From Serinicoccus hydrothermalis (GTDB taxonomy: Bacteria > Actinomycetota > Actinomycetes > Actinomycetales > Dermatophilaceae), in NCBI RefSeq assembly GCF_001685415.1, contig NZ_CP014989.1, positions 1,240,001 to 1,304,000 of the forward strand: a DNA stretch of 64,000 bases. The letters run 5' to 3'. The notes under the pieces are model-generated. The model did no database searches, was not told the DNA's origin, and saw only the letters and a list, made by a program, of their open reading frames with translations. Below, piece after piece: positions 6,421 to 21,152 of this stretch (position 1 is the first letter of the stretch; each line of letters starts with the position of its first letter). Made by a program: the position numbers and the translations under genes.

Positions 6421-7319
6421 GCAGCGGCGCCCAGGCACACGGCCTCGAGGTGCTCCGGGCAGGTCCGGGAGCCACGGTCCAGGACCTCGGCCGGCCGGGC
6501 CTCGCGCACCTCGGCGTCGGGCGCTCCGGCGCGGCGGACGTGCCCTCGCTGCGGCTGGCCAACCGGCTGCTCGGCAACGACGAGGGCGCGGCGGCGCTCG
6601 AGGTCACCGTGGGCGGGCTCGCGGTGCGCTGCACGGGTGGCGCCTTCGTCGCCCTCACCGGCGCCCCGTGCCCCCTCACCCTCGACGGGCGGGCGGCCGC
6701 CCCCGACACGGTCCTCTGGCTCCCCGACGGTGCCGAGCTCGAGCTGGGTATGCCGACCGTCGGGCTGCGCAGCTATCTCGCGGTCCGCGGGGGCGTGGAC
6801 GTCGAGCCGGTCCTCGGCTCCCGCTCGCGCGACACCCTGGCCGGGCTCGGGCCGGAGCCGCTCACGGAAGGCACGCAGCTCCCGGTCGGCCCGGCTCCGG
6901 ACGCCGAGCCGGTGGTCGACTCCGCGCCGCTGGCGCCGCCCACCGGCGGTGAGATCAGCCTGCGCGTCCGCCTGGGGCCACGGGAGGACTGGTTCGCGCC
7001 CGGTGCCGAGAAGGCCCTGCTGGGACAGGCATACCAGGTGAGCGCCGACTCCGACCGGGTCGGTGCGCGGCTCGAGGGCCCGGCGTTGGAGCGCGCAGAC
7101 GACGACCGGGAGCTGCCGAGCGAGGGGATGGTGCTGGGGAGCCTGCAGGTGCCGCCGTCCGGGCAGCCGACGATCTTCCTGGCCGACCACCCCGTGACCG
7201 GGGGTTACCCGGTCATCGGTGTGCTCGACCCGCGCGACGTCCCGGCCGCCGCGCAGGCCCGGCCCGGTCAGTCGGTGCGCTTCGTCCGCGCGCCCTCCGC
7301 CGCGTCCGGGAGCGGCTGA
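6417..7319 (+). CDS. pxpC: 5-oxoprolinase subunit C (KipA family)
   Basis: A 300-residue biotin-dependent carboxylase/KipA type protein. It begins VSSGAQAHGLEVLRAGPG, then shows TVQDLGRPG, a standard motif of the family, and ends around GGYPVIGVL before a short tail. GTG 6417 was chosen because it overlaps the pxpB stop (GTGA). The frame stays open upstream, but a start there would read into pxpB. Its last 52 bases overlap the 3' end of the convergent malQ. Confidence 0.93.
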   Translation: MSSGAQAHGLEVLRAGPGATVQDLGRPGLAHLGVGRSGAADVPSLRLANRLLGNDEGAAALEVTVGGLAVRCTGGAFVALTGAPCPLTLDGRAAAPDTVLWLPDGAELELGMPTVGLRSYLAVRGGVDVEPVLGSRSRDTLAGLGPEPLTEGTQLPVGPAPDAEPVVDSAPLAPPTGGEISLRVRLGPREDWFAPGAEKALLGQAYQVSADSDRVGARLEGPALERADDDRELPSEGMVLGSLQVPPSGQPTIFLADHPVTGGYPVIGVLDPRDVPAAAQARPGQSVRFVRAPSAASGSG

Positions 7320-9451
7320 CCCTCGTCCTGCCCGGAGGTGTCCACCGTGCGCGCGAGCCGGCGCGCCGAGCGCCACGTCACCCACTCCTCGAGCAGCACG
7401 GGCTTGCCGTCGGGCCCGGCGAGTGGGACCCGCCAGTTGGGGTACTCCTCGTCGGTGCCGGGCTGGTTGATGACCCGGGTGTCGCCGGTGAGGTCGCTCA
7501 CGCTGACGCCGAGGAGCTTCGCGGGCGTACGGGTGAGGAAGGCGTGCAGGGCCTGCACCTGCTCGGTGACGTCGGCGTCCTCGCCCAGCAGCCCGCGCCG
7601 CCGCAGGTCGGTCAGCACCTCGTCCCGCGAGCGCGCCTCCTCCGCCATTTCCTCCTCCAGCGGCCGGTCCAGCAGCCCCAGCCGGGAGCGCAGGTCGACG
7701 TGCACGCCCTCGAGGTAGCCGGCGGTGGGCGGCAGGTCGTGGGTGGTGACCGTGGCGAGGCACAGCTCGCGGTAGTCCTCGGGGTCCAGCAGCCGGCCGT
7801 CGCCCTCCCAGTCGCGCTCGAACCACAGGATCGAGGTGCCCATGACCCCGCGCTCGCGCAGGTAGTCGCGCACCCAGGGCTCGACCGTGCCCAGGTCCTC
7901 GCCGATGACGACGGCCCCGGCCCGGTGCGCCTCGAGCAGCAGGATGCCGATCATCGCCTCGTGGTCGTAGCGCACGTAGGTCCCCTGGAACGGCTCGGCG
8001 CCCTCGGGGATCCACCACAGCCGGAAGAGCCCGATGACGTGGTCCACCCGCAGGCCCCCGCTGTCCCGCAGCGCTGCCCGCACCATCTCGCGGTAGGGGG
8101 CATACCCGAGCTCGGCGAGCTTGTCCGGGCGCCACGGCGGCTGCGACCAGTCCTGGCCGAGCTGGTTGTACTGGTCCGCCGGCGCGCCGACCGTCACGCC
8201 GCGGGCGAGCGCGTCGCCCAGGCCCCACGCGTCGGCGCCGTCCGGGTGCACGCCGACGGCGAGGTCAGAGATCACCCCGAGCGACATCCCGGTGTCGAGC
8301 AGGTCGCGCTGCACCCGGGCGAGCTGCTCGTCGAGCACCCACTGCAGCCAGCAGTGGAAGTCCACCTCGGCCTCGTGCTCCTGGCGGTATGCCTCGACCG
8401 CCTCCCCGCGGGCGTCCTGCAGCTCCTGCGGCCACTCCCGCCACCAGGTGCCGTGCTCCTGGCTGATCGCGCACCAGGTCGCGAAGTCGACGAGGCCCTG
8501 GCCCTCCCGCTCGACGTAGGCCTCGAACGCGCGGGCGCGCCGCAGCGAGCGCGGCTGCGCGTGCACGAGGCGCAGCGCCGCCTCCTTCGCCGCCCACACC
8601 GGGTCGCGCTCGAGCGTGTCGAGGTCGAGGTAGCGCTGGGCGTCGTCGGCGTGCCACTCGAGGAGCTGGCGCTGCGCGGCGGAGAGGTAGCCCACCTCGG
8701 GCACGTCCTCCACCCGGAGGTAGATGGGGTTGACGAAGCGCCGGCTCGTGGGCAGGTAGGGCGAGGGCTCCATCTCGCCGACCGGCTCGGCCGCGTGCAG
8801 CGGGTTGACCAGGACGAAGTCCGCGCCCAGCCCGGCGGCCCAGGCGCCGGCGTCACCCAGGTCGGCGAGGTCGCCGATGCCCCAGGATGAGGAGGAGCGC
8901 ATCGCATACAGCTGGGTCATGAGGCCCCAGCCCTGCGCCCCCTCGGCAGCGAGACCCGGAGGCAGCCCCAGCCGCGGCGGCGTCACGACCAGCGGCATAC
9001 GGGCCCCCTGCCCACCGGCCTGTACGACCACCTCGTGCCAGCCGAGCGGCAGGTCGGAGGGGACCTCCAGCAGCAGCCGGCGCACCGTGACCCCGTCGAC
9101 CTCGCGCTCCTCAGGCTTGCCCCCACCCACGGCGAGCTGGTGCTCCGCGCCCTCCTCGGTCACCAGCTGCGCGCTCACGTCGTCGCCGGGAGCGACGTGC
9201 ATGGGCAACGTCGCGCTCTCGCCCCCCGCGATGACGAGCACCGGCGGCAGGGTGCGCCGCCACTCCCGCTCCTGGGCACGGTCCAGCTCGCGGTCGGCGA
9301 AGTCGCCGCTGACGTCGACCCCGAGCGCGGCCAGGACGGCGACGACCGTCTCGTCGGGGACCTCGGTGTGCCGGCCCTGCCAGTCCCAGAACTCGGTGGC
9401 GATGCCGTAGGCGGCCGCCAGGTGGGCGAGGGCGGGCGTGCGCTGCGTCAC
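7268..9451 (-). CDS. malQ: 4-alpha-glucanotransferase
   Basis: A 727-residue GH77 enzyme that disproportionates maltodextrins, acting in glycogen/maltose metabolism in the cytosol. Key features are the nucleophile region LRVDHVIGLFRLWWIPEG and the general-acid region VVIGEDLGTVEPWV. An N-terminal extension of about 150 residues is typical of actinobacterial MalQ. GTG 9451 was chosen: the protein then begins VTQRTPALAHLAAAYGI, and GAGAGG lies about eleven bases upstream. The end overlaps pxpC tail to tail by 52 bases, so the two transcripts should be partly antisense. Confidence 0.93.
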   Translation of the reverse strand: MTQRTPALAHLAAAYGIATEFWDWQGRHTEVPDETVVAVLAALGVDVSGDFADRELDRAQEREWRRTLPPVLVIAGGESATLPMHVAPGDDVSAQLVTEEGAEHQLAVGGGKPEEREVDGVTVRRLLLEVPSDLPLGWHEVVVQAGGQGARMPLVVTPPRLGLPPGLAAEGAQGWGLMTQLYAMRSSSSWGIGDLADLGDAGAWAAGLGADFVLVNPLHAAEPVGEMEPSPYLPTSRRFVNPIYLRVEDVPEVGYLSAAQRQLLEWHADDAQRYLDLDTLERDPVWAAKEAALRLVHAQPRSLRRARAFEAYVEREGQGLVDFATWCAISQEHGTWWREWPQELQDARGEAVEAYRQEHEAEVDFHCWLQWVLDEQLARVQRDLLDTGMSLGVISDLAVGVHPDGADAWGLGDALARGVTVGAPADQYNQLGQDWSQPPWRPDKLAELGYAPYREMVRAALRDSGGLRVDHVIGLFRLWWIPEGAEPFQGTYVRYDHEAMIGILLLEAHRAGAVVIGEDLGTVEPWVRDYLRERGVMGTSILWFERDWEGDGRLLDPEDYRELCLATVTTHDLPPTAGYLEGVHVDLRSRLGLLDRPLEEEMAEEARSRDEVLTDLRRRGLLGEDADVTEQVQALHAFLTRTPAKLLGVSVSDLTGDTRVINQPGTDEEYPNWRVPLAGPDGKPVLLEEWVTWRSARRLARTVDTSGQDEGQPLPDAAEGARTKRTD

Positions 9452-9519
9452 AGGGGTGCTGACCTCTCGGGCGGGGGGCGTGCGGGGCAAGTCTCTCAGG
9501 AGGTCGGCGCCACGCCACA

Positions 9520-10434
9520 ATGGCAGGCATGTTTGGTCTGGAACTGCCTTTCGACACCTGGGAGTCGACCCTGGACTGGCTCCTCGGTGCCCCCCTGCGC
9601 GTCGTCCTCATCCTGCTCTTCGCCGTGGCGGCCCGGTGGGCCGCCCACCGGGCGATCCGCGGGGTCGTGGAGGGCGCGGCGAAGCGCGCCGACGACCACG
9701 AGCGGTCCTCCCTCGAGCGCGCCTTCGACAGCGCCACCGGGGCCCGCAAGGAGCGTCGCCGGCAGCGCGCCCTGACCATGGGCTCGCTGCTGCGCAGCAT
9801 CGCGACGTTCCTCATCGCCACGGTGGCCCTGCTGACGATCATGGCCGAGCTGGGGATGCCGCTCGCGCCGCTGCTCACCAGCGCCGGCATCGGTGGTGTG
9901 GCCATCGGCTTCGGCGCGCAGTCCCTGGTCAAGGACTTCCTCTCCGGCATCTTCATGATCATCGAGGACCAGTACGGCGTCGGTGACCTCATCGACACCG
10001 GCGAGGCCGTCGGGACCGTCGAGGAGGTCACCCTGCGGGTCACCCGGCTGCGCGACCCCAGCGGTGTCGTGTGGTTCATCCGCAACGGGGAGATCATCCG
10101 GATCGGCAACAAGAGCCAGGGCTGGGCGGTGGCCACCATCGACATCCCGGTCGCCTACGACGAGGACCCGGCCCGCGTCATACCCCTGCTGCGGGACGTC
10201 GCGGCACAGGTGTATGCCGACCCGGACTGGTCCGAGAAGCTGCTCGAGGAGCCCTCGGTGGCCGGCGTCGAGTCGGTCTCCGGCGGGACGATGACGCTGC
10301 GCATCTTCGCGAAGACCCGGCCGGGCGAGCAGTGGGGCGTGCCCCGCGTGATCCGGGAGCGCGCCAAGGAGCGCTTCGACGACGAGGGCGTCCGCGGACC
10401 GCGGATCTCGCCCTTCGGGGACGCCCAGGTCTGA
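9520..10434 (+). CDS. Small-conductance mechanosensitive channel (MscS family)
   Basis: A 304-residue inner-membrane channel that releases solutes under hypo-osmotic stress. Three hydrophobic segments precede the pore-lining helix and the beta-domain motif GFGAQSLVKDFLSGIFMIIE, which is diagnostic for MscS. Then come a beta domain and an alpha/beta C-terminal domain. Two starts are possible, ATG 9520 and ATG 9529; neither has a well-spaced ribosome site, and an AGGAGG sits 18 bases before the first. Confidence 0.9.
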   Translation: MAGMFGLELPFDTWESTLDWLLGAPLRVVLILLFAVAARWAAHRAIRGVVEGAAKRADDHERSSLERAFDSATGARKERRRQRALTMGSLLRSIATFLIATVALLTIMAELGMPLAPLLTSAGIGGVAIGFGAQSLVKDFLSGIFMIIEDQYGVGDLIDTGEAVGTVEEVTLRVTRLRDPSGVVWFIRNGEIIRIGNKSQGWAVATIDIPVAYDEDPARVIPLLRDVAAQVYADPDWSEKLLEEPSVAGVESVSGGTMTLRIFAKTRPGEQWGVPRVIRERAKERFDDEGVRGPRISPFGDAQV

Positions 10435-10450: not shown

Positions 10451-10480
10451 TGACAACCCTTCCCGGCCCCTCGGTCGTCT
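10451..10480 (+). promoter_or_regulatory. Putative ECF-sigma-type promoter of the first sigma module
   Basis: TGACAACC is followed after 17 bases by CGTCT, the AAC/CGT pattern typical of ECF sigma promoters. It sits 23 bases before the sigma gene start, which suggests autoregulation. An AGGAGG ribosome site lies downstream. Confidence 0.45.
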
Positions 10481-10502: not shown

Positions 10503-11007
10503 ATGACGAGCGAGAGGTTCACCGAGTTCGTGCTGGCGCACGGCCAGGGGTTGCACCGCACCGCGGTGCTGCTGACACGAGACCCGCACACGGCGCACGA
10601 CCTGCTCCAGGAGGCGCTGCTCAAGGCGTGGCGCGCCTGGGGCAGGGTGACGGACAACCCCGAGGGGTATGTCCGCACGATCCTGCTGCGCGAGTTCCTC
10701 ACCGCGCGCCGCCGCCGCTGGCACGGGGAGGTGCCCACCGAGACGCTGCCCGAGCCCGCCACCGACCGTGGTCCCGACGCCGCGACCGGGCTGGACCTCG
10801 AGCGGGCGATCGGCACCCTGCCGCCGCAGCAGCGGGCGGTGGTGGTGCTGCGCTACTTCCACGACCCTGACGGTCGCCGACACCGCCCGGACCCTCGGCC
10901 TCGCCGAGGGCACGGTGAAGTCGCACCAGTCGCGCGCCCTGGCGGCGCTGCGGATCAGCGAGCACCTGGACGACGACCACGTCGCCAGCGAAGGGAGGGG
11001 GCACTGA
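10503..11007 (+). pseudogene. SigE-family ECF sigma factor with a one-base frameshift
   Basis: The reading frame from ATG 10503 gives a clear sigma region 2 (about residues 8-75; LLQEALLKAWRAW) and the start of region 4 (LPPQQRAVVVLRYFHD). The frame then breaks in the CCC run at 10865-10867. Removing one C restores LTVADTARTLGLAEGTVKS, a perfect region 4 helix-turn-helix, and a stop at 11007, giving 167 residues, normal for the family. The stop overlaps the ATG of the next gene. Uncorrected, the frame runs in phase into the next gene and would fuse region 2 to it. Either a true mutation or an assembly error; the sequence cannot decide. Confidence 0.8.
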
Positions 11008-12870
11008 TGGCTCCCACGACCGAAGACCTGCGCACCACGCTGCGGGCGATGGCGGACGAGCATCCCCCGCCCGCCCCCGCGGACCTGCTGGCCGAGCTGC
11101 GCGCGGAGCGGTCGGCGCGGCGCACCCGGCGCGGCTGGCTCGCCGCCGCCGGGGTCGCGGCCGCCGCTGCCGCCGCGGTCGTCGTCACCCAGGCCCTGCC
11201 GGGGCCGACGGCGACCGACCCCGGCGCGCGACGCCGACGTCAGCACCGGTTGGGAGCTCGTCGACGGCGAGCCCCCGGAGTATGCCGTCGGGCTGCACCT
11301 CCTCGAGTCCTCCGCGCTGGACCCCTCGGGGTCGGCGGACGTCCCCGCGACGGGGACGCAGGCCCAGCGGTACGCCGTGCTCTGGTGCGACACCGGGCCC
11401 GCGCTCGACGACCCGGCCGTGACTCCTCCCGGACTCACCCTCGACGTCGGGGAGGGCGGGCTTCTCCCGGTCCCCTGCCGCTCGAGCGACGGCTCCGGCG
11501 AGGGCGCCCCACCGGTGGCGCTGCCGCCGTCCGAGGACGGCTGGCAGGCCGCCTGGGAGGGTGACCTCCCGGCGGACGGCGACGCCGTGCTCGGGATCTA
11601 CGAGGAGGCCGCGCACGCCGACTACCCCTTCCCGGGGTGGCCCGACCCGCTGCCGCAGGCGCCGGACGTTGCCGACGGCGAGGTGAGCCTGGACCAGGAC
11701 ACCCCGCTGACCGGGCAGCAGATCTCAGGGCAGGAGGTCACCGTCATGGTGACCAGCACCGTCGCAGCAAACCTCGACGAGGACAGCACCGTGGAGCTGT
11801 GGACCTCGGTGCCCGGCCGGATCCAGGTCTGGCTCGACGGCACCCTGCTGACCGACGACGGCGACGACCTGCAGGAATGGCAGGTCGCCGACCCGGCGCT
11901 GCGTGACGGCTCCTTCAGCGCCTTCACCGCCGGGCAGCGGCTCACCCTTGCCGTGCCGCCGGAGCTGGCGCAGCGCGGCGAGCCGGTCCGGGTCAGCGCG
12001 GGCGCCAACCACGGCCAGCCCTGGCAGGTCCGGGTCACCGGCGCCGACGGACCGCGGGGCGCCGTGGACGCGGTGGCACCGGTGTCGCCCGACGCGCTGC
12101 CCGACGCTCTTGTCGAGTGGTCCGGCGGGATGCACCGCCTGGCCGCCTGGGAGCTGCCCACCGACGGCACCGTCGCGGAGCTCGAGCTGCCCGAGGCGGT
12201 GAGGGGCGAGCCGGTGACCTGGGTCGTCGCCTGCCCCGGTGTCGATCCCTCACCCATCGGCATGGCGACGATCACCGTCGACGACGGCCCGCGGTTGGAG
12301 CGTGCTTGCGCCGACCCGGAGTACGGGTTCGGGTTCGTGGGAACCCAGGTCGACCTGTCCGAGGTGCCCGAGGGGAGCAGCGTGCGCGTCGGCCTGCCGT
12401 CGCTGGACGAGGTGGACACGGGTCTGGTCGCGGCCTACGCGCCCGTGCCCTTCGAGGACTTCGACCACGCCGCAGGAGCGACGTCGGAGTGGGCCTTCTC
12501 GGCCGAGGCGATCCTGCGCGCCGAGCCCGAGGTCGTGGCCACGCTCACGCTGGCCGACCTCGACGCGGACGGCGTCGCCACGCTCGCGGTGCCAGAGGGC
12601 GCGTCGATCCTGCGGGCCACCTCGGAGGGGGTGGGTCGTCTGGAGGTCTCGCACGAGGAGCGCTCGCTGCTGGACCCCGGGGTCGTCTCGGCCTCGGCCC
12701 GGGAGGCCGGCGAGCAGTGGTGGACCGCCTGGACCGACCAGCCGTCGACCCAGCTCGTCGCCACGCACCTCGAGCGGTCCGTCTCCTCCGGTGACGAGCT
12801 GCGCATCGAGGTCGAGGGCTACGAGGGCGGCAGCCTCACCCTCGAGCTGCTCGCACCGGCGGATCGCTGA
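11007..12870 (+). pseudogene. Sigma-factor-linked membrane protein with large ectodomain, frameshifted
   Basis: Starts at ATG 11007 overlapping the sigma stop. A short cytosolic N-terminus is followed by one membrane helix at about residues 43-65. The frame is lost at the C run 11219-11222. One C too many restores a continuous protein of about 620 residues ending at 12870. The ectodomain contains LWCD, a later VPC cysteine, AVLGIYEE, DGTLLTDDGDD, HRLAAWELP, PFEDFDHAAG and WWTAWTD, all matched in the next gene. Position and topology suggest an anti-sigma or signal-sensing partner. I recognise no named domain. Like its neighbour, it is either mutated or mis-assembled. Confidence 0.7.
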
Positions 12871-12891
12871 GGTCTTTGCGAGACTGGACCC

Positions 12892-15228
12892 ATGGCAGGG
12901 AGGCCGACCGATACCGGGTCCGGCGCCGAGGAGCTCGTACGGGCAGGCGCCGGGCTCCACCGGCTCGCGGCGATGCTCACCGGCGACACGGCGAGCGCCA
13001 CCCGTCTGACGGGCCTCACCCTGGCCCAGGCGCCGCCGGACGCGGACGCCCAGGAGCTGCGCCGCCGTCTCGTCCGGACGTTCGTGCGCACCGCGCCCCG
13101 ACGCCGGGACAAGAGCCTCGCGGTCGGGACGGGCGACCCCGGCGACGTCGTCGCGCGGCTCTCCCCGCGAGCCCGTGCGGCGGCCGTGCTGCGCCTCGTC
13201 GAAGGGGCCAGCGTCGCCGACGTCGCCACGGCGCTGCGCATCGCCCCGGACAAGGTGGCCCGGCTCGTCCCGGACGAGGAGGGGGTCGACGTCGCGCTCG
13301 AGGCCCTGGCGCACCGCTACGCGCTGCCGGCTGAGCAGCTGGAGCGCGAGCTCGGGACCGCCGTGGCGCAGGCACCGCCGGAGCCGCCGTCGCGCGACCG
13401 GCGGTGGTGGTGGGTGGCGGCCGCGGCCGTGCCGCTCGCCGTGCTGGGCGGGTATGCGCTCTCCCTCGGCCGCGACGAGCCCGCCGGGACGGACGAGGCG
13501 GCACCGACGGGAGGGGGCTCCGCCCAGGTGGGCTCGGTGGACCTCACGGAGGCGGGCTTCGAGCTGGACGACGGCGAGCCGCCGCGCGGCGCGGCGGGGC
13601 TGACGAGGATGGACACGGTCGAGGTGAGCTCCGGGGAGAGCGCCGGCTTCGTCCTCAGCACCGTCGACGCCCGCTTCGGCGGGCAGGTCTCGTCCTTCGG
13701 CGTCCTGTGGTGCGACATGCCGCCCGCCGACGACCCGGCCCTCGAGCCGCCCGTCGGGGAGGTCACGGTGGGCGGGTCGACCCTGACCCTGCCCTGCGCC
13801 GGGACCAGCGGGGAGCCGGCGGTGGGGCTGGACCACGTCGTGGCCCTGCCCGCGAGCGGACGGGCGGAGATCCGCATCAGCGGAGACCTACCACCGGAGG
13901 GACGGGCGGTGCTGGGGGTCTACGGGCAGACCGACGACATCCCGGCCACCCCGCTCCCCCGGGGTGACCTCACGGCCGGGCTCCCGGTCCCCCCGGACGC
14001 GGTCGTCGTCGACGAGGCCGGGACGGCATCGCCCTACGGCTGGGGTGAGCGCGTCGTGCAGCCGGTGGAGCTCTCGGCGGACAGCACGATCAGGGTGTGG
14101 TCCGGGAGCACCGGTGCTGTCTCGGTCCTCGTCGACGGCATCACCGTCACCGACGACGGGGACCTCGAGGCGTGGGCGGGCGGCCGGCCCGACTGGCGGG
14201 ATCAGCAGCCCGACGTGCGGGACGGCCGGTGGATGGTCTACGTCCCCGGGACCGCCCGGGAGTTCCCGGTGCCCGAGGACCTGCTCCCCGGGGACGGCGA
14301 GCAGCGGTCCGTCGTCGTCGAGGCCGTGGCGGACAGCACCGACCACCTGCAGGTGGTGGCCACCGGGGCTGCGGCCGGGACGTCCGACCGCTCACCGGTG
14401 GCGCGGACCGATGCTCCTGACGCACCGGAGTACGTCTCGGGGCACCGCCTGGTGGCTGCCTGGGACCTGCCGATGGACGGGGTGGAGCGCGAGCTGCTCG
14501 AGCCGCCGGAGCGGGCGGACACCACCTGGGCGCTGCGCGTCCCCGAGCCCGAGGGAGCGCGCGGGGCCTGGCTGCCCTTCGTCACGGAGGGTGGCCTGCG
14601 CGACGGGGAGTGGCTCCGGACCCTGTGGACGGCCTACTCCGCCTCCGACGTCTCCAGCGCGTTCCAGGATCTCGGGTGGGGAGGAGACTGGGTCAAGCGG
14701 GAAGGCGGCAGAATCATCGAGAGCGACGAGTCCGGCCAGGAGGGGCCCACCGGGGAGCCGGACCTGCACGCGAGCGCACCGGCGTCACCCGGCCATCCCC
14801 CGGCACTGCTGCTGGCCTACGAGCCGGTGGCCTACGAGGACTTCGACTTCGCCGCGGCGCAGCTTCCCGCCACCAGCTGGCCACCGGACGAGGTGCCACC
14901 GTGGCCGGGCCTCTCCGACTCGCCGGTGGCGACGGTGACGAGCGAGGACCTCGGCGACGACGGACGGACGACGGTGACCGTCCCGAACAGCTATGAGCTC
15001 GGGGCGCGCATCGCCACGGAGGGCCAGGGCCGCATCCGCTTCCAGGTGGACGGAGGAACGGTCGACCAGCTGCAGGACACCCAGGGATGGTGGTCCAGCT
15101 GGACCGACCGCGAGGTCGTCTCCCAGGCTCCGCTCTTCATGGGGATCTACGAGCTCGACGGCGAGCTGGAGCTCACCATCACCGTCGAGGACTACGAGGA
15201 CGTCACCATCGAGCTCTTCCGCAACTGA
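12892..15228 (+). CDS. Fusion of degenerate sigma-like domain, membrane helix and ectodomain
   Basis: A 778-residue protein. Residues about 10-70 resemble a worn sigma region 2 (LHRLAAMLTGDTASATRLTG). About 84-128 resemble region 4 (RLSPRARAAAVLRLVEGASV, then an HTH-like VADVATALRIAPDKVARL). A membrane helix follows at about 172-192 (WWWVAAAAVPLAVLGG). The rest is outside the cell and parallels the preceding gene: LWCD, a later LPC cysteine, AVLGVYGQ, DGITVTDDGD, HRLVAAWDLP, YEDFDFAAA and WWSSWTD. The region 2 helices lack the usual acidic core-binding residues, so it may bind promoter DNA or the sigma factor without acting as a sigma. ECF proteins with membrane extensions are known; this ectodomain I do not recognise. 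It lies 22 bases after its paralogue. Confidence 0.75.
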   Translation: MAGRPTDTGSGAEELVRAGAGLHRLAAMLTGDTASATRLTGLTLAQAPPDADAQELRRRLVRTFVRTAPRRRDKSLAVGTGDPGDVVARLSPRARAAAVLRLVEGASVADVATALRIAPDKVARLVPDEEGVDVALEALAHRYALPAEQLERELGTAVAQAPPEPPSRDRRWWWVAAAAVPLAVLGGYALSLGRDEPAGTDEAAPTGGGSAQVGSVDLTEAGFELDDGEPPRGAAGLTRMDTVEVSSGESAGFVLSTVDARFGGQVSSFGVLWCDMPPADDPALEPPVGEVTVGGSTLTLPCAGTSGEPAVGLDHVVALPASGRAEIRISGDLPPEGRAVLGVYGQTDDIPATPLPRGDLTAGLPVPPDAVVVDEAGTASPYGWGERVVQPVELSADSTIRVWSGSTGAVSVLVDGITVTDDGDLEAWAGGRPDWRDQQPDVRDGRWMVYVPGTAREFPVPEDLLPGDGEQRSVVVEAVADSTDHLQVVATGAAAGTSDRSPVARTDAPDAPEYVSGHRLVAAWDLPMDGVERELLEPPERADTTWALRVPEPEGARGAWLPFVTEGGLRDGEWLRTLWTAYSASDVSSAFQDLGWGGDWVKREGGRIIESDESGQEGPTGEPDLHASAPASPGHPPALLLAYEPVAYEDFDFAAAQLPATSWPPDEVPPWPGLSDSPVATVTSEDLGDDGRTTVTVPNSYELGARIATEGQGRIRFQVDGGTVDQLQDTQGWWSSWTDREVVSQAPLFMGIYELDGELELTITVEDYEDVTIELFRN

Positions 15229-19746: not shown

Positions 19747-20286
19747 ATGGTGCGTGAACCGGACGGTTTCCGCGAGTTCGTGACCGATCGCTCGCCGGCG
19801 CTGCTGCGCACGGCGTGGATGCTCACGGGTGACGCCCACCGTGCCGAGGACCTGCTGCAGACCGCCCTCACCCGCACCTGGCCGCACTGGAGCAGGATCC
19901 GGGAGCAGCATCCCGAGGCCTACGTCCGCAAGGTCATGGTGCGGACCAACGCCAGCTGGTGGTCCCGGCGGTGGCGCGGTGAGCGGCCGACGGAGGACCT
20001 GACCGCGGCCGCTGCGCGGTCCGGCGACGCCTCGTCGACCCGGGCCGAGGCCGCAGACCCGCAGCAGGGCATACCGGAGCGGATCGACCTCGCCCGCGCC
20101 CTGCGCGCGCTACCCGTCCGCCAGCGGCAGTGCGTGGTGCTGCGGCACTTCGACGACCTGTCCGTCGCCGAGACCGCCCGGCTCATGGGCTGCTCGGAGG
20201 GCACCGTGAAGAGTCAGACCGCCAAGGGGCTGGCGAGCCTGCGGACCGCCATCGAGCGGGAGGAGCGGGAGGAGAAGGTGCGATGA
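19747..20286 (+). CDS. SigE-family ECF sigma factor
   Basis: A 179-residue ECF sigma factor that would direct RNA polymerase to stress or envelope promoters. Region 2 spans about residues 10-75 (AEDLLQTALTRTWPHW). Region 4 spans about 119-168 (LPVRQRQCVVLRHFDDLSVA, then the HTH AETARLMGCSEGTVKSQ). ATG 19747 has GGAGGG eight bases upstream. The stop overlaps the start of a membrane protein gene (ATGA), a typical sigma/anti-sigma arrangement. Intact, unlike the sigma gene at 10503. Confidence 0.92.
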   Translation: MVREPDGFREFVTDRSPALLRTAWMLTGDAHRAEDLLQTALTRTWPHWSRIREQHPEAYVRKVMVRTNASWWSRRWRGERPTEDLTAAAARSGDASSTRAEAADPQQGIPERIDLARALRALPVRQRQCVVLRHFDDLSVAETARLMGCSEGTVKSQTAKGLASLRTAIEREEREEKVR

Positions 20287-21152
20287 CGACGACCGAGCAG
20301 ATCAGTCAGCAGCTCAAGGCGCTGCCACCGGTGATGGAGGAGCAGGACGACCGCTTCGCCCAGGTCGAGCGACGGGTCGGGCGCGCCCGGCGCCGGACGG
20401 CCGGCGCGACCGCCGCGGGCGTGCTCGCCCTCGTCCTCGCCGGATGGGGAGCGACCCAGGTGCTGCCCGGGGACGAGCAGCCGACCGGACCGGCGACGAC
20501 CGGTGGGTCCGGCAGCCCCGGCACCGAGTTCAGCAACCGCTCGCCGGGCACGATCCTCGGGTCGTCGGCGCTCGCCGAGGGCACGACCTTCACCGGCGCC
20601 GGCGTGCAGGAGGTGGACCTGTCCACGGTGGGGACGCCGGGAGGGACGGACGCCCTGCGGCTGCAGATCACGTGCGAAGACCCGGCCGAGGTGATGTGGC
20701 CGTTCCGGGCGACGGTCACCGGGTGTCGACAGGCATCAGACCCGGCGTCGCCCGCCGACGAGATCTTCCCGTTGTCCTTCCTCGTGCCGGTGGAGGACGC
20801 CGAGGAGCCGTTCTCCGTCCAGGTGACGGACGACGTCTCGTGGGAGCTCATGGCCGAGCCGGTCGAGGTGGACCAGATCCCCCTCGGCGTCAACGAGCGC
20901 GGGCAGACCTACGGCGTGGACACCCCGCTGGCGCGACCCGACCTGGTCGAGGTGCGCGGCTCGGACCTCGGGGGCGGCTACGTCGAGGCGGAGCAGCTCG
21001 AGGACCTCATCGGCGAGCCGCCGACGACCCTGTCCGGGCTCGAGGCGTGGGAGTCGGTCGAGCGGGAGCCGCTGGAGATCCCGACCTATGCCTCCGACGG
21101 CCTCACCGTCAAGGGCACCCTCGAGATCCAGGTGCCTGTCGATCCGCGCTGA
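20283..21152 (+). CDS. Putative anti-sigma or sensor membrane protein
   Basis: A 289-residue protein with a cytosolic N-terminus of about 38 residues (MTTTEQISQQLKALPPVMEE), one membrane helix at about 40-60, and an ectodomain of about 225 residues with two cysteines (ITCEDP and VTGCRQ). I recognise no named domain and see no zinc-finger motif. It is coupled to the sigma gene, so sigma control or signal sensing is the likely role; this is inference. The ectodomain is shorter than, and not clearly alike to, the pair at 11007 and 12892. A 62-base palindrome starts 22 bases after its stop. Confidence 0.75.
   Translation: MTTTEQISQQLKALPPVMEEQDDRFAQVERRVGRARRRTAGATAAGVLALVLAGWGATQVLPGDEQPTGPATTGGSGSPGTEFSNRSPGTILGSSALAEGTTFTGAGVQEVDLSTVGTPGGTDALRLQITCEDPAEVMWPFRATVTGCRQASDPASPADEIFPLSFLVPVEDAEEPFSVQVTDDVSWELMAEPVEVDQIPLGVNERGQTYGVDTPLARPDLVEVRGSDLGGGYVEAEQLEDLIGEPPTTLSGLEAWESVEREPLEIPTYASDGLTVKGTLEIQVPVDPR

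Follow-up and report, generated by a model that had tools for sequence, protein, structure and literature searches.

The window analysed here, 64,000 nucleotides of the Serinicoccus hydrothermalis contig NZ_CP014989.1, contains a gene that raises the question of what a sigma-like domain does when it is tethered to the membrane and linked to a large ectodomain. The first-pass annotation had described the product as worn copies of sigma regions 2 and 4, one membrane helix and an ectodomain, acting together as a membrane-held regulator that reads a surface signal directly. The open reading frame (ORF) at 12892-15228 proved to be real (778 aa), its sigma2- and sigma4-like part was confirmed by profile matches over residues 1-127, and the single membrane helix (residues 175-193) and the ectodomain (~585 aa, three quarters of the protein) were borne out. 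The predicted topology is a cytoplasmic sigma-like part, one transmembrane (TM) helix and an outer ectodomain. Altogether, sequence comparisons and structural models point to a cytoplasmic domain that is folded, under selection and no longer a sigma factor.

Single-sequence searches gave weak matches (Sigma70_r4_2, E 0.028), and the protein scored 15.8 bits against the 141.55-bit cut-off of TIGR02983, the SigE family of extracytoplasmic function (ECF) sigma factors. A profile built from 20 orthologous N-terminal domains of the genus (A1) matched M. tuberculosis SigE (E 5e-10, profile positions 2-127) and SigL (E 3e-7), and aligned over positions 1-128 with a profile of 24 SigE-family sigmas (A3; E 1.4e-16). 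The SigE and A3 alignments end midway through the recognition helix of the ordinary sigma. With the N-domain profile, each of 22 genus copies scored E 1.6e-41 or better and the best other sequence 1.8e-16; the 192-nt N-terminal end of a copy split in genome G017 fell between them (E 7.7e-19). The AlphaFold model of the domain (pLDDT, the predicted local distance difference test, 83) places helices at residues 10-67 and 83-125 that match sigma structures, so the sigma-like helices looked for within residues 1-160 were found. The predicted fold is a compact sigma2/sigma4 unit with the arrangement of sigma/anti-sigma and PhyR/NepR complexes, which differs from that of sigmas bound to RNA polymerase. 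True sigmas top the match lists of all three profiles (genus fused, other-genera fused and ordinary). PhyR chains, recognised from structure titles, make up 9 of the 28 listed matches of A1 and 8 of the 60 shown of 63 matches of a profile of 12 fused rows from other genera (3n0r, 2.3e-6), and none appears among the 60 shown of 65 matches of the ordinary-sigma profile. The domain thus appears to be shifted towards PhyR.

Comparison of 20 fused genus copies with 24 ordinary sigmas indicated which residues have been given up. Gln36, Trp46 and Glu76, fixed in the ordinary sigmas (24/24), are found in none of the fused copies (0/20 each). At the GTVKS positions, Thr137 and Lys139 are gone from all fused copies and Ser140 persists in one (24/24 for each in ordinary sigmas), while Gly136 is retained in one and Val138 in 15. 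Further near-fixed positions are altered at Phe9, Ala102, Pro107, Asp121 and Leu122. We take Gln36 to be the clamp-contacting glutamine of sigma70 region 2.2, and the GTVKS residues are presumably those that contact the -35 element. Ala21, Ala31, Arg71, Arg111 and Leu116 are kept in every sequence of both sets, and Leu17 and Leu34 in all fused copies and 23 of the 24 ordinary sigmas. The sigma2-sigma4 spacing is 39-52 residues in ordinary sigmas and 23-33 in fused copies, two ranges without overlap, and the fused copies have conserved residues of their own: D82 (20/20), G84 (18/20), D85 (19/20), P127 (18/19) and G131 (19/20). The ratio of nonsynonymous to synonymous substitution rates (omega) was below 1 in the sigma2-like and helix-turn-helix (HTH) parts in 13 of 13 pairs, and in 11 of these 13, which are not independent, the HTH had a lower value than the ectodomain. 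Between the window and locus L034, omega was 0.27 for the N-terminal domain, 0.20 for the intact sigma at 19747 and 0.21 for mscS. Losses are concentrated on presumed contact positions in a domain under purifying selection; to call the sigma half worn is misleading. On the evidence of its residues, the length of its linker and the predicted length of its recognition helix only, the protein does not qualify as a functional sigma, and it can probably no longer serve as one.

The fused gene arose through the in-frame joining of a SigE-type ECF sigma gene and the adjacent gene of its one-TM partner. SigE-family sigmas of the genus have an overlapping downstream gene whose product consists of ~40-55 residues on the cytoplasmic side, a single TM helix and a large ectodomain. 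Such a gene passed a hydropathy filter in 16 of 17 parsed loci and in two of four further loci fetched, the other two (L110 and L120) having a like-placed frame slightly under it. We infer that these partners are anti-sigmas. In an hhalign comparison, the short segment at residues 126-165 matched the beginning of the partner protein (score 18.9, equalled in 0 of 300 column shuffles; hhalign probability 26%) in preference to the sigma tail (9.5, equalled in 10 of 300). Most likely, therefore, the sigma lost its tail and the last part of its recognition helix on fusion, and what was left became joined to the first residues of the partner. The joint lies inside the sigma4 recognition helix, at about residue 125-127. 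Trees show a single origin within the genus: the fused sigma domains group together as one clade (100/100, in a tree of 44 rows), as do the fused ectodomains (99/99; 28 rows), which adjoin the ectodomain of the separate partner encoded at the same locus.

Fusions were also present in other genera of the family, labelled g28 (six genomes), g33 (three), g121 (three) and g6 (one). A tree uniting all 33 fused rows in one clade was rejected (approximately unbiased test, p-AU 2e-12). The g33 and g6 fusions are nested among ordinary sigmas (100/92 and 100/94), the starred branches of the tree require at least three changes, and the relation between g1 and g121 (83/96) is left unsettled; these trees indicate that fusions of separate origin exist elsewhere in the family. 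Gln36 is lost in 6/6 g28, 3/3 g33, 2/3 g121 and 0/1 g6 rows and kept in 30/30 ordinary sigmas, and Glu76 is lost in all 33 fused rows. Trp46 is retained in g28, g33 and g6. The g33 (16) and g121 (22-27) fusions have short linkers, against 26-47 in g28 and 41 in g6, whose sigma residues are mostly intact. This g6 copy (L138 of G545, from 225 onward) keeps the Gln, the Trp and GTVRS, and may be an intermediate or an active form comparable to IutY, considered below.

The first-pass annotation had also placed a separate sigma factor and a near-duplicate of the ectodomain next door. A sigma gene does start at 10503, but no intact sigma is encoded there, as the frames of both the sigma and its partner appear broken in this assembly; the partner's ectodomain is a paralogue with ~30% identity to the fused one. 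The two apparent frameshifts lie within ~400 bp (window 10503-11240) and are either real breaks or sequencing errors. Among 31 genus genomes, 17 carry 22 fused copies, with the split G017 copy, whose N-terminal end stands on a different contig, counted once. Orthologues of the separate sigma, defined by at least 57% identity over most of the length, were found in eight of the 31; the next best full-length match has 51% identity, and a 57% partial match in G021 is an orthologue of the sigma at 19747. Of the fused-gene genomes, two have the separate sigma intact (G001 and G026), two have it interrupted (by the frameshift in the window genome, G000, and by a TAG codon in G013), and by this identity criterion it was not found in 13; four genomes (G004, G006, G009 and G018) have the sigma without a fused copy. 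In G013 the in-frame TAG stands between the two halves of the orthologous sigma (L041, ~13239-13688). Since the separate sigma is absent or interrupted in 15 of these 17 genomes, the fused protein, on this sequence criterion, cannot everywhere depend on it. Some fused copies are themselves broken in the assemblies (L039 at the 3' end, L043 at the 5' end, G017 between contigs). At L046 and L048 a second, divergent fused paralogue stops early and lacks the last part of the ectodomain (F046/F048).

The ectodomain is modelled as all-beta (pLDDT 84.8; predicted template modelling score 0.83), has two Cys that are invariant in 28 of 28 aligned rows, and gives weak matches resembling carbohydrate-binding modules. 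The shorter ectodomains of L138 (g6), L133 and L137 (both g121) match one of the two halves of the window ectodomain, to which they are distantly related; no relatedness to the genus ectodomain was detected for those of g28 and g33. The cytoplasmic part of the window copy groups with L034 and L039 (99/99) and its ectodomain with the L031 clade (100/99), the L039 ectodomain being absent from that tree. The switch in identity comes at about residue 190-200 (window 13460-13500), the outer edge of the TM helix, in a recombination-like pattern, and the ectodomain seems to be exchangeable.

Our best reading of these data, to which we give slightly less than an even chance, is a membrane-bound sigma mimic that signals by binding proteins and does not act as a sigma. 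We favour it because protein binding is the simplest function that would keep the sigma fold while dropping polymerase and DNA contacts. In this reading the sigma factor and its own membrane partner form one in-frame chain, whose cytoplasmic half would be made of the sigma2/sigma4 unit with two partner helices packed on it, perhaps preserving a sigma/anti-sigma complex in fossil form within a single protein. A signal received by the ectodomain could shift the balance between pseudo-sigma and partner helices, opening or closing the mimic, and the module might then bind or release sigma or partner proteins of a SigE-type network, much as PhyR and NepR do. We infer the protein binding, together with its target, signal, ligand and sign of output. 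The window genome encodes four other SigE-family sigmas above the TIGR02983 cut-off as possible targets, and the sigma at 19747 and its partner possibly belong to the same network in trans. A bolder proposal, to which we lean less, is that of a one-protein transmembrane anti-anti-sigma switch, in which fused ECF pairs would repeatedly become membrane-bound mimics that lack polymerase and promoter contact and, on meeting an external ligand, sequester or free the partners of whichever SigE-type sigmas remain. Three observations weigh against sigma mimicry: the partner-derived segment is short, with an hhalign probability of just 26% for its match; the sigma-like part has a net positive charge in 18 of 19 copies counted; and residue 121 of the recognition helix is Lys or Arg in 18 of 20.

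The positive charge and the basic residue 121 would suit a membrane one-component regulator of the ToxR/CadC kind, as in the earlier proposal, in which the sigma4-derived HTH binds DNA from the membrane with a new specificity. The HTH is under purifying selection and its Arg111-Val138 spacing is 26 residues in every one of 44 rows, and the protein shares with ToxR and CadC a cytoplasmic HTH, one TM helix and an ectodomain. Regulators of that type carry a winged-helix DNA-binding domain of the OmpR kind; this domain is sigma-derived, and no OmpR-type domain is among the matches listed. However, the predicted recognition helix has only seven residues, truncated by the fusion joint, and its outward positions are unusually variable (mean entropy 2.05 bits vs 1.30 for the remaining HTH, equalled or exceeded by 10 of 10,000 random position sets). 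Because the helix is short, these positions vary and the domain is shifted towards PhyR, direct DNA regulation is less likely than sigma mimicry and we consider it improbable; of the membrane-held regulator, the sigma-like domain, tether and ectodomain stand and direct DNA binding is not favoured. We give a similarly small chance to an ectodomain that is the working part, binding envelope or sugar, with the pseudo-sigma as a folded cytoplasmic anchor. Its share of the protein, its apparent swap in the window copy, the invariant Cys and the carbohydrate-binding-like matches would fit, but a mere anchor would not need the slower evolution that the HTH shows relative to the ectodomain, and the same Gln has been lost in separately arisen fusions that carry other ectodomains.

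A protein that is still a sigma, freed by regulated proteolysis, is far less probable. The layout is shared with IutY (ECF243) of Pseudomonas putida, described as a cytosolic ECF sigma and a membrane anti-sigma part in one polypeptide (PMC5411451, PMC8999054), and the sequence here likewise joins a sigma-derived N-terminus and a membrane partner. By that account IutY yields an active sigma after cleavage by Prc and RseP, whereas the fused protein lacks the presumed polymerase and promoter contacts and has its recognition helix interrupted by the joint. ECF48, ECF52 and ECF53 are, according to PMC8999054, actinobacterial sigmas with a C-terminal TM extension, such as SCO4117 (ECF52) of Streptomyces coelicolor with its carbohydrate-binding domain outside the cytoplasm. 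They are described there as sigmas expected to be freed by proteolysis and as having a zinc-finger, unlike the fused protein, which appears inactive by its residues and has no Cys in residues 1-174. The g6 copy with its Gln, Trp and GTVRS would suit an active sigma; in the 20 genus copies, however, the Gln, the Trp, the Thr and Lys of GTVKS and the linker length are gone, and the modelled recognition helix is shortened. A relic in decay, produced by a chance fusion and on its way to becoming a pseudogene, is just as remote: some copies are broken or lack the last ectodomain part, but the remaining ones are open, omega is below 1 in the sigma2-like and HTH parts in all 13 pairs, fused-specific residues are conserved and an extended -10 precedes nearly all of 21 copies.

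The closest known systems also include the parent pairs and PhyR. SigE-family sigmas (TIGR02983) and their adjacent one-TM partners, the parents of both fused halves, differ in being encoded by separate genes and in having intact sigma residues. PhyR, an alphaproteobacterial anti-anti-sigma, binds NepR through a sigma-like domain and has a receiver domain, according to PMC12148442. The fused protein resembles it in the compact sigma2/sigma4 fold, by profile and fold matches, and differs from PhyR as described there in having a TM helix and an all-beta ectodomain instead of the C-terminal receiver, in its membrane tether and in carrying a partner-derived segment in its own chain. Sigma/anti-sigma fusions were known before as sigmas switched on by cleavage; here fusion was followed by loss of sigma-essential residues with the fold kept, in lineages of separate origin, and this recurrence is the chief interest of the case. 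If the reading is true, it would provide a path by which a transcription factor becomes a membrane signalling protein, a class of envelope sensors that annotation would label as weak sigma matches or hypothetical proteins, and natural replicates in which to ask why tethered sigma domains persist.

The fused gene has its own predicted promoter motif, a conserved extended -10 of leaderless type, with T at -7 in 21/21 copies, A at -11 in 20/21, G at -14 in 20/21 and T at -15 in 16/21. It would put the transcription start at or beside the start codon. Leaderless actinobacterial mRNAs have a TANNNT element, with T before the A (PMC3898074), whereas the motif here mostly has C or G at that place. 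The ECF-type motif GACAACC-N15-GTCGTC lies 5' of the separate sigma in five of five same-locus copies. Feature coordinates are collected in the table.

Table. Features of the fused gene and its surroundings, in window coordinates
Feature	Position	Strand	Remarks
Fused gene: pseudo-sigma, partner segment, TM helix, ectodomain	12892..15228	+	778 aa
Sigma2-like helices, residues 10-67	12919..13092	+	AlphaFold model and sigma structure matches; region 2.2 Gln and Trp lost in 20/20 aligned copies
Sigma4-like HTH, residues 83-125	13138..13266	+	modelled recognition helix of seven residues, 119-125
Segment homologous to partner N-terminus, residues 126-165	13267..13386	+	predicted helices 132-142 and 147-160; joint ~125-127
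Single TM helix, residues 175-193	13414..13470	+	hydropathy scan; RDRRWWW directly before (positive inside)
All-beta ectodomain, two homologous halves	13480..15225	+	two invariant Cys, 28/28 aligned rows
Extended -10-like element TGnnAnnnT	12877..12885	+	ends 6 nt 5' of start codon; leaderless-type promoter motif
Separate SigE-family ECF sigma gene	10503..11007	+	frame broken near 10866 in assembly
Membrane partner of separate sigma, paralogous ectodomain	11007..12870	+	frame broken near 11215-11240
ECF-type promoter motif GACAACC-N15-GTCGTC	10452..10479	+	5' of separate sigma gene
Intact SigE-family sigma	19747..20286	+	TIGR02983, 178 bits; possible in-trans network member
Membrane partner of sigma at 19747	20280..21152	+	possible in-trans network member

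The locus order in the window and its nearest kin is mscS, SigE-type sigma, one-TM partner, fused gene and treZ/aglA, and some of these members are missing in other genomes. Tandem repeats of ~50 bp occur between mscS and the fused gene in L031, L032, L033 and L037. An ARAGORN call of a tRNA-Thr on the minus strand at window 8508-8604, within the coding sequence of the 7268-9520 ORF, is probably false.
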